Shown here one piece after another: positions 22,573-50,304 of a stretch of DNA of 64,000 nucleotides. Each line of letters opens with the position of its first letter. Positions within the stretch are counted from its first letter, which is position 1. The notes beneath the pieces were generated by a model that did no database searches, had not been told where the DNA came from, and was given only the letters and a program-made list of their open reading frames with translations. The stretch covers positions 1 to 64,000 of the forward strand of contig JAHHHW010000075.1 of NCBI GenBank assembly GCA_019359115.1, read 5' to 3'. The position numbers and the translations under genes were made by a program. This DNA is from Pelatocladus maniniholoensis HA4357-MV3. GTDB taxonomy: Bacteria; Cyanobacteriota; Cyanobacteriia; Cyanobacteriales; Nostocaceae.

Positions 22573-22873
22573 GAGGATGTTTGAAAAGTCATGATTGATG
22601 TATCAAATATTTTTTACCCCACCCTAACCCTCCCCTTTACAAGGCTGCGGTGTACACAGAAGTCTTATAAAGTTGCCTAGTAGCGTTTTGATCCCCCCTA
22701 ACCCCCCTTAAAAAAGGGGGAACTAGAATCAAAGTCCCCCTTTTTTCTAGCGTAGCGGCGCGTCAGCGCGGGGATTTAGGGGGATCAGAGGATTTGTGTG
22801 TACACCGCAGGGGGATTAAGGGGGGGGTAATAATGTAATTAAAATTACAGCCAATCACTTTTCAAACAACCTC
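22573..22873. mobile_element. MITE D, IS5-like ends, inserted in repeat E
   Basis: The ends GAGGATGTTTGAAAAGT and, in reverse complement, GAGGTTGTTTGAAAAGT differ at one position. Flanking TTA on both sides (22570-22572 and 22874-22876) fits the 3-bp TNA duplication of some IS5-family elements. It carries no transposase; its centre is occupied by element C. Confidence 0.75.
22645..22810. mobile_element. MITE family C, copy 1, nested in D
   Basis: Perfect 14-bp inverted ends CTGCGGTGTACACA / TGTGTACACCGCAG enclose G/C-run hairpins (CCCCCTAACCCCCC, GGGGGAT). It is nearly identical to 50056-50200 except for an extra short GC-rich insertion near 22747-22770. No target duplication is visible here, unlike the copy at 50 kb. 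Confidence 0.85.
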
Positions 22874-26613: not shown

Positions 26614-26782
26614 GTAAGCGCAGAGGTTCGCAGAGTTTTTCAGAATTATATTCGTTACGAACTTGTGAAATGTTGTACTAATACCATTTCCATATGAAGA
26701 TGGTACCTCCCCTTGGTAAGGGGAGGTTGGGAGGGGTTAAAATAATGTGCAGCTTTACAGAGAATTGGTATAAGTTAATTCC

Positions 26783-34943: not shown

Positions 34944-35458
34944 GTTGGGGATTGGGGATTGGGGAAGGTGGGGTCCCCTGGAGGGGATAAGGGGAAGGTA
35001 GGGGTCCCCTGGAGGGGATAAGGGGTAATGGAGATTGGGGAGCATCCCAATTTTTTCAATATACCGCAAAGGGTTTAAACCCTTTGCTCATAGCACAAGT
35101 CGGATGAATACGACTCAAATAGACCAAGCAGTCTGCTTAAGCAGACTTTAGCGATTTCAATCGCAGGCGGGTTTTTTGAACATTTGGGATGCTCCCGGAG
35201 ATTGGGGATTGTAAATAATCAGCAAATATAGCACTTCTGACTCGATTGCAATACAGTCGGAATCCCACCCCGGCTTTGCTGACGCAAAACCTCCCCTCCC
35301 CGCTTGCGGGGAGGGGATTAAGGGGTGGGGTACGTATTGGACACAAACTGCTATAACCAATGACCAATGACAACTGATCGCTATTATATTCTTGTTCCCA
35401 AGCCAATAATGATGTATTCAATTACTTACCTGAGATTTTATAAGAGGAAATACTGAAA
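34944..35458. other. Repeat-filled region between dnaG and the amidase gene
   Basis: 515 bases. Near dnaG it holds GGGGATTGGGGATT heptamers and two direct copies of a roughly 30-bp unit containing GGGGTCCCCTGGAGGGGATA (about 34971-35025). Then comes MITE A copy 2 (35038-35196). A strong hairpin CCCCTCCCCGC-TTGC-GGGGAGGGG (about 35292-35314) follows. The amidase promoter should be in the last 100 bases. Confidence 0.7.
35038..35196. mobile_element. MITE family A, copy 2 (159 bp)
   Basis: The inverted ends GGGAGCATCCCAA / TTGGGATGCTCCC are identical to those of copy 1. It is flanked by GGAGATTG at 35030-35037 and 35197-35204, an exact 8-bp duplication that differs from copy 1. Internal palindromes are AAGGGTTTAAACCCTT, AGTCTGCTTAAGCAGACT and GCGATTTCAATCGC. 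Confidence 0.9.
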
Positions 35459-41422: not shown

Positions 41423-41476
41423 TTTGAAATTTATTTCTTGGCGAAACAAAAAGTTGGTACAAGATATGAATTATTA

Positions 41477-41596
41477 GACCTCTTGCAAAAATATTTTTAC
41501 CCCACCCTAACCCTAAGCGTGAACGGGGAGGGAACTAAATCTTCCCCCCGTGAACGGGGGGATTGAGGGGGGTTCATTCGACTTTTGCAAGAGGTC
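41477..41596. mobile_element. MITE family F, copy 1 (120 bp, uninterrupted)
   Basis: The ends GACCTCTTGCAAAA / TTTTGCAAGAGGTC are perfect inverted repeats, bordered by TA on each side (41475-41476, 41597-41598) as for IS630/Tc1-type elements. It is nearly identical in reverse complement to 49978-50252 once the insertion there is removed. Confidence 0.9.
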
Positions 41597-41641
41597 TATT
41601 AATCCAAAATTCAAAATCTAAAATCTAAAATCTAAAATCGG

Positions 41642-49890: not shown

Positions 49891-49977
49891 TTAAAGAACC
49901 ATAATAGGGTAGCATATTTTGGAATTGGGGAAAGGGAGACTTATCAGTTATCAAATTAAACTGGTCACTGTTAACTA

Positions 49978-50252
49978 GACCTCTTGCAAAAGTCGAATGA
50001 ACCCCCCTCATTCCCCCCGTGAACGGGGGGAAGATTTAGTTCCCTCCCCGTAAACCTGCGGTGTACACAGAAGTCTTATAAAGTTGCCTAGTAGCGTTTT
50101 GATCCCCCCTAACCCCCCTTAAAAAAGGGGGAACTAGAATCAAAGTCCCCCTTTTTAAGGGGGATTTAGGGGGATCAGAGGATTTATGTGTACACCGCAG
50201 CCCCGTAAACGCTTAGGGTTAGGGTGGGGTAAAAATATTTTTGCAAGAGGTC
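49978..50252. mobile_element. MITE family F, copy 2, interrupted by MITE C
   Basis: The ends GACCTCTTGCAAAA / TTTTGCAAGAGGTC with flanking TA (49976-49977, 50253-50254) are the same as in copy 1. The total is 275 bp; subtracting MITE C (145 bp) and one 10-bp duplication gives 120 bp, the exact length of copy 1. It lies upstream of rpsB. Confidence 0.95.
50056..50200. mobile_element. MITE family C, copy 2 (145 bp), inserted in MITE F
   Basis: Perfect 14-bp inverted ends CTGCGGTGTACACA / TGTGTACACCGCAG. The flanking 10-bp direct repeat CCCCGTAAAC (50046-50055 and 50201-50210) is present once, as CCCCGTTCAC in reverse complement, in the empty paralogue at 41.5 kb. The interior is two nested G/C-run palindromes (CCCCCTAACCCCCC, AAGGGGGATTTAGGGGG). 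Confidence 0.95.
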
Positions 50253-50304
50253 TACTGTTAACTGTTAACAGTTAACAGTGACCAGTTAATTGATTCATGC
50301 CCAA

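Follow-up and report, generated by a model that had tools for sequence, protein, structure and literature searches.

In the 64,000-nucleotide stretch of DNA analysed here (the window; positions 1 to 64,000 of contig C75, JAHHHW010000075.1, in the draft genome G000 of Pelatocladus maniniholoensis HA4357-MV3, which comprises 167 contigs and 6.70 Mb), a short mobile element designated C lies near 50 kb inside another one, designated F. This arrangement raises the question of which transposases would have moved the two elements, and whether the insertion of one into the other is a single accident or a recurrent event.

A preliminary description of the locus had interpreted it as a MITE inserted in a MITE, and this reading was borne out by the 10-bp duplication CCCCGTAAAC on both sides of C, by the perfect 14-bp inverted ends of C, and by an empty copy of F in the same window. 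The lengths given there (275 - 145 - 10 = 120 bp) were also upheld, since the 120 bp left after removal of C and one duplication from F gave a gap-free alignment with 41477-41596 in reverse complement, 115 of 120 positions being identical. The five differences consist of one point change and two dinucleotides centred in two hairpins. The description had named two possible refutations, a failure of 41477-41596 to align with the flanks at 50 kb and different borders in other copies; the sequences do align, and the other copies in the genome have the same borders. Its claim that the window fixes the borders of both elements held for C, including the 10-bp target duplication, while F had been drawn one base too short on each side. 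The features of the window are listed in Table 1.

Table 1. Elements, target duplications, and palindromes located in the window
Feature	Position	Strand	Remarks
Element F, interrupted copy, corrected borders, 277 bp	49977..50253	+	TIR AGACCTCTTGCAAAA
F target duplication ACT, left, 3 bp	49974..49976	.	
F target duplication ACT, right, 3 bp	50254..50256	.	
F hairpin 1, CCCCCCGT-GA-ACGGGGGG	50013..50030	.	spacer in GA orientation
F hairpin 2, CCCTCCCCGT-AA-ACGCTTAGGG when empty	50042..50218	.	split by C
Element C, 145-bp MITE	50056..50200	+	ends CTGCGGTGTACACAGAAGT / CTGCGGTGTACACATAAAT
C target duplication, left, 10 bp, CCCCGTAAAC	50046..50055	.	half of F hairpin 2
C target duplication, right, 10 bp, CCCCGTAAAC	50201..50210	.	
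Empty F copy, corrected borders, 122 bp	41476..41597	-	
Empty F copy, target duplication ATT, left, 3 bp	41473..41475	.	
Empty F copy, target duplication ATT, right, 3 bp	41598..41600	.	
Second C-superfamily copy, 166-bp subfamily	22645..22810	+	left flank CCCCTTTACAAGG; right side without matching duplication
Unoccupied palindrome CCCCTCCCCGCTTGCGGGGAGGGG in another repeat	35293..35316	.	C insertions in copies elsewhere in the genome
Unoccupied palindrome CCTCCCCTTGGTAAGGGGAGG	26706..26726	.	occupied at C150:20800 and, on the other strand, at C2:20621

Both elements belong to abundant families. At least 45 matches to F were found in the genome (the best 40 of 114 candidates were scored, and the interrupted F of the window was absent from these), including 30 that covered the full 120 bp at an identity of at least 94%. 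At least 71 matches to C were found (best 40 of 90 candidates scored), 28 of which spanned positions 1-145; some of the partial matches were the palindromic interior of C matching itself on the opposite strand. A copy identical to C is present at C120:17706, and many others are nearly identical. The 14-bp end of F occurs 126 times in the genome, compared with seven times for a reversed-pattern control, and the 14-bp end of C, CTGCGGTGTACACA, with at most one mismatch and its CTAC form included, occurs 119 times compared with none for the control. The observed nesting is therefore not a chance resemblance.

The borders of F were determined from 45 F-end pairs in the fetched loci, a subset of the copies given the 126 ends counted in the genome, comprising 29 pairs of 120 bp, 12 longer ones with inserts, three of 164 bp with another interior, and one of 116 bp. 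In 43 of the 45 pairs, a 3-bp duplication is located outside a terminal A and T, which makes these two bases part of the element and gives F a length of 122 bp when empty and 277 bp with C. The preliminary description had assigned F to the IS630-type MITEs with a TA target, and TA does adjoin both sides in 30 of the 45 pairs. However, the 3-bp duplication one base further out is also present in copies that have no TA, and the apparent TA results from the terminal A and T of F standing next to duplications most of which (31/43) begin with A and finish with T. Furthermore, a full-length element in G004, the genome of a relative, the sole one with F ends that was read (920 bp, or 922 bp with the A and T), has the first 15 end bases of F and an ACT duplication, and contains two frames matching the NCBIfam IS5 family NF033581 (4.8e-36 and 6.3e-21) as well as Pfam DDE_Tnp_4 and HTH_Tnp_4. 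Taken singly, neither frame reaches the NCBIfam cut-off for a whole protein, as would be anticipated when a frame is split. An IS630 source with a TA target for F is consequently scarcely credible.

With its 3-bp duplication and ends in common with an IS5-family IS, F resembles other IS5-family MITEs, from which it is set apart by two internal hairpins serving as landing sites. The draft genome itself yielded no intact IS5 partner for F, only weaker IS5-type matches or remnants. A match on C139 was rejected as the partner, since its ends, AGACCTCTTGCATGAATAGT and AGACCTCTTACACGAATCAA, lie 680 bp apart and enclose a broken frame with no matching 3-bp duplication, and a match on C28 was rejected because no convincing ends were found.

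The partner of C was sought through its ends in 59 genomes, with that of the window counted in. The exact 19-bp end CT[AG]CGGTGTACACACAAGT is present in 31 of the 59, and G031, the genome of a relative, contains four fetched copies of a 1487-bp element with CTACGGTGTACACACAAGT at both ends and an open single frame of 483 aa, besides a fifth copy that was listed. All four fetched copies have exact 11-bp duplications, and three of them have clear palindromes as targets. The 483-aa protein matched the NCBIfam IS4 family NF033590 (E=2.9e-116), carries the Y-(2)-R-(3)-E-(6)-K motif of that family as YTWRWRIEQLFAILK, and had Tn5 transposase as its best match among solved chains (E=3.1e-37). The copies in G013 and G017 have broken frames. 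The IS4-family traits of about 10-bp direct repeats and a single frame were thus also found, with repeats of 9-11 bp at nine IS sites in relatives. Altogether, 31 IS loci were examined (6/8 of one set and 25/80 of another), and an end pair was present in 18 of them and absent from 13. The length was 1486-1487 bp in 13 of these 18, and 1484, 1500, 1514, and twice 1572 bp in the remaining five.

According to passages of PMC2266710, the IS50 subgroup has the end consensus CW------Y---CA-A--W-, a length of 1350-1550 bp, and direct repeats of 8-9 bp. The IS and both ends of C agree with the consensus at 7/7 positions, and the prevailing length falls within the range. Thus, the partner of C resembles Tn5 and the IS50 subgroup in its YREK motif, 19-bp end pattern, length, and match to the Tn5 transposase sequence, but differs in having duplications of 9-11 bp, a strong palindrome preference, and a cyanobacterial host. 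Since the repeats were mostly 10-11 bp (11 bp in 17, 10 bp in 12, and 9 bp in two of the 31 reconstructed sites described below), we assign the partner to the IS4 family under the label Tn5-like, and do not assert that it belongs to the IS50 subgroup. Among named elements, the nearest seen was ISSysp3 of the IS4 family, from plasmid pAQ7 of Picosynechococcus sp. PCC 7002, whose transposase is 64.6% identical to that of the probable partner. Its 1485-bp length, its ends CTACTGTGTACACACAAGT (19/19 inverted), and its 10-bp duplication CCCTCTAAAT are similar to those of the partner, while in contrast to C it is a full-length IS from another order, and its sole inspected site has ATCT/AGAT arms and no long hairpin.

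C is short and multicopy, and it shares its ends and duplication length with this autonomous IS, which makes it a MITE that was probably moved in trans by the Tn5-like transposase. The agreement with the 19-bp IS end is 17/19 and 16/19 for the two ends of C in the window, and 19/19 in other subfamilies of the same genome. The full-length IS with C ends and 10-bp duplications that the preliminary description had proposed to look for was found intact in G031, with 11-bp duplications, and was not found in the draft genome of the window. There, no match to the partner transposase was obtained at E<=1e-30, the best match being only 33% identical. Fifteen places with DDE_Tnp_1 matches in this genome were searched for C ends with at most three mismatches and rejected, because no end pair enclosed the gene. 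An IS4 relative on C42, the 33% identical one, was rejected as well, since it lies on an inverted-duplicated stretch where its ends are not definable. This stretch (C42:3800-10500) is an almost perfect inverted duplication, several kb long, that surrounds two copies of the distant IS4-family gene, and is either a real palindrome or an assembly artefact. Among the 59 genomes, nine have the partner transposase at E<=1e-30, some of them only as fragments or at 30-33% identity. G008 (five contigs) and G011 (four contigs) have 35 and 13 C ends, respectively, and no transposase match at this threshold, so the mini-elements seem to outlive the transposase. A plasmid search with F plus C returned 20 records, none covering more than 80% of the query, and the 15 listed matched the interior of C alone.

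The fetched loci contained 124 C ends, from which 45 distinct pairs of 114-346 bp could be delimited. About 34 of the 124 ends have no partner, and only 22 of the 45 paired elements have an exact 9-11-bp duplication, both of which count against the explanation that we favour below. A further 21 of the 45 have no duplication of 5 bp or more, and some of these are chimaeric or rearranged. One C copy (C27:8292-8436) draws its left flank from one host palindrome and its right flank from F, a sign that C copies at separate sites may have recombined. At C88:43476-43821, C72:74308-74653, and C130:7533-7838, C-type elements of 306-346 bp form a subfamily with common ends, and in the interior of the C88 copy units of the TTGAATT(C/T)GGGT type are repeated in tandem.

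The nesting at 50 kb is one case of recurrent palindrome-directed nesting; the preliminary description had rightly placed C inside F and had missed both the location in a hairpin and the frequency of this location in the C superfamily. Twelve F copies carry an insert between two F ends, and the insert is C-type in nine of them. It is located in hairpin 2 in C25, C55, C75 (the window), C88, C90, and C98 and in hairpin 1 in C107 and C120, and in C87 one flank lies in each hairpin with the intervening DNA missing. One or the other hairpin is involved in 9/9 cases, although the hairpins make up about a third of F. One-ended F junctions that, by eye, end in a hairpin or a variant of it are found at C7:20365, C27:8436, C33:5017, C86:37148, and C98:9643. 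The same position of hairpin 2 was used by elements of 145 bp (C75), 166 bp (C25 and C55), and 346 bp (C88). Since the 145-bp and the 346-bp elements entered at the same F nucleotide with the same CCCCGTAAAC duplication, they represent independent hits.

Such recurrence might also be produced by a single old nesting after which F and C moved as composites, by duplication instead of repeated insertion. Some duplication of host plus C is probable, as C85:112224 and C86:13326 have a 146-bp variant and similar flanks. However, the C-type inserts of the nine nested F copies measure 114, 145, 166, 167, 183, 256, 329, and 346 bp, they are located in both hairpins, and six different 3-bp duplications flank the F copies, so that we consider this origin of the recurrence very improbable.

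Two other MITE families were found in F. One, with GCAGGGTGGTTTCATAC ends, lies in hairpin 1 at C100:18781-19075 and C88:43054-43873, with an unusually long duplication of 17-18 bp (TCAATCCCCCCGT..), and C in turn targets the hairpin in the interior of this family. The locus on C88 contains a C-type element inside the GCAGGGTGGTTTCATAC-type element inside F hairpin 1, in addition to the 346-bp C-type element in hairpin 2. The other family, found at C77:29659-29901, C38:13956-14198, and C98:7195-7773, has CAATAC(T/G)G(C/T)TCGG ends and duplications of 10 bp.

The target sites of the C superfamily are mostly short palindromes. Thirty-one sites with exact 9-11-bp duplications were reconstructed, 22 from the paired elements of this genome and nine from IS copies in relatives; L161, L178, L179, L180, L183 (which has no left flank), L185, L186, L187, and L206 have no such duplication and were left out, as was L160 (5 bp). 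The palindrome score was defined as the number of complementary pairs at 11 positions around whichever centre gave the highest count, at most 2 bp away from the duplication centre. It reached at least 9/11 at 24 of the 31 sites, with a mean of 9.45 and a lowest value of 6, while 20,000 random window positions gave a mean of 5.05, and 0.345% of them reached 9. Among 455 control centres in the window, chosen for CCC on the upstream and GGG on the downstream side, 5.9%, or 6/67 clusters, reached 9, and some of these are the host repeats' own palindromes. Because the host palindromes belong to repeat families, the sites are non-independent draws. At L157, L177, L181, and the ISSysp3 site, short inverted arms (such as CCTCT/AGAGG in L181) at or near the duplication take the place of full hairpins, so the targeting rule may involve flanking arms rather than a full hairpin.

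The palindromic sites would also be expected if C had no target preference and entered anywhere, surviving only in harmless intergenic repeats that happen to be palindromic. Neither F nor any of the other host repeats is coding, so that survivorship bias would be expected, and F also contains other MITEs, including a GCAGGGTGG-ended family that entered hairpin 1 in 2/2 cases; the hairpins thus attract more than C, which also counts against our favoured explanation. On the other hand, the CAATAC-type MITEs (n=3) never lie at a hairpin centre, with two in an outer hairpin arm and one outside, whereas the C-type insertions involve the hairpins in all nine two-ended copies that hold one and include elements of three lengths at one position of hairpin 2, and comparable sites are used by the IS copies of other species. 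Survival at harmless sites alone is accordingly an unlikely account.

We regard it as very probable that F is a MITE of an IS5-family transposase, and that C is a MITE of a palindrome-preferring Tn5-like transposase, inserted into hairpins. At the sequence level, this explanation builds on the observed ends, duplications, and empty sites, the matching-ended elements with transposase genes in relatives, and the palindromic targets. In this mechanism, an IS5-family transposase would recognise the F ends and generate the 3-bp duplication, and a Tn5-like IS4-family transposase would recognise the 19-bp C ends. The latter would favour targets with inverted-repeat arms and, presumably by cut-and-paste with a 9-11-bp staggered cut, would introduce C into hairpins, both those of F and those of further palindromic repeats. 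Besides the points named above, this explanation is weakened by the fact that neither a close transposase for C nor an intact IS5 partner for F was found in the draft genome, by the non-independence of the target sites, by the sites with short arms only, and by duplications longer than the 8-9 bp of the IS50 subgroup. That F and C were in fact mobilised by these transposases is an inference, as is the role of the palindrome itself, instead of selection for harmless sites, in driving target choice.

IS1111 is an IS110-like element. As described in part of PMC10969869, it occupies a GTAG palindrome of QMITE2 in Coxiella, with two copies mentioned, and is similar to the C/F case in that a mobile element targets a MITE-borne palindrome. 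IS targeting of repeated palindromes is established, also for the IS4 family, since passages of PMC1525189 report that ISRm22 of Sinorhizobium meliloti enters the axis of repeated REP palindromes, with some imperfect duplications, and discuss palindromic Tn5 target sites. According to the same passages, ISRm22 differs from C in its 6-bp direct repeats, in being a full-length IS instead of a MITE, and in its different palindromes. An excerpt of PMC3542288 reports numerous type II MITEs in Anabaena sp. 90 that have no matching IS ends in the same genome, to which C and F are likened here by description. What is unusual in the F/C system is the use of MITE hairpins as recurrent landing sites together with two-state spacers. 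No account of this system was found in the searched, largely non-subscription literature on cyanobacterial MITEs and ISSysp3. Two abundant cyanobacterial MITE families are hereby tied to probable transposases across genomes, and the palindromes of one family are precise, recurrent targets for the other. Dozens of insertions that arose naturally, the empty site having been reconstructed for 31 of them, provide test material for target reading by Tn5-like transposases.

Of the 29 F copies of 120 bp, two were dropped because of a changed end base, and the two-state spacers were counted in the other 27. The spacer of hairpin 1 is GA in 14 and TC in 13, and that of hairpin 2 is TT in 17, AA in nine, and TC in one, while every other column varies in at most three copies. 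The combinations are non-random, with GA mostly accompanying TT and TC mostly accompanying AA (GA/TT 12, GA/AA 2, TC/TT 5, TC/AA 7, TC/TC 1; or 12, 2, 6, 8, and 1 with the two dropped copies restored). Since GA and TC, as well as TT and AA, are mutual reverse complements, they bear the signature of loop inversion. A second repeat, represented in the window at 35262-35345 (best 40 of 74 candidate matches scored), had TT in nine, AA in six, GT in four, and AC in two of 21 readable copies among 30 fetched loci, after all were turned to one strand. These patterns suggest that the hairpin spacers invert in place. In plastids, palindromes are described as sites of frequent inversions (PMC2903610). 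Recombination between copies is another possible source of both orientations, and differences this small may be misplaced in a draft assembly. The duplication copies at C112 are identical but for an inverted spacer, and the altered one may be the copy that is still in a full hairpin; those at C120:17706 have AC and TT, which is no simple inversion. Two-state spacers could serve as a simple gauge of loop inversion in a bacterial chromosome.

A tentative idea that would connect these observations is that palindromes are shared, self-renewing landing pads. Their arms would be read by a Tn5-like transposase, perhaps as an extruded cruciform, so that hairpin-bearing mini-elements target each other and build Russian dolls such as the one at C88:43054-43873, while the spacers invert to near balance. 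Insertion would freeze the half-hairpin copy of the duplication, and the full-hairpin copy would keep flipping, for which C112 is the one clear case.

F hairpin 2 and the second repeat, which are otherwise different, have a common arm polymorphism around the core, CCCC/GGGG versus AAGC/GCTT, which raises gene conversion or template switching as a question only. The arms occur in four combinations in the second repeat (11, 4, 4, and 2 of 21) and in three in F.
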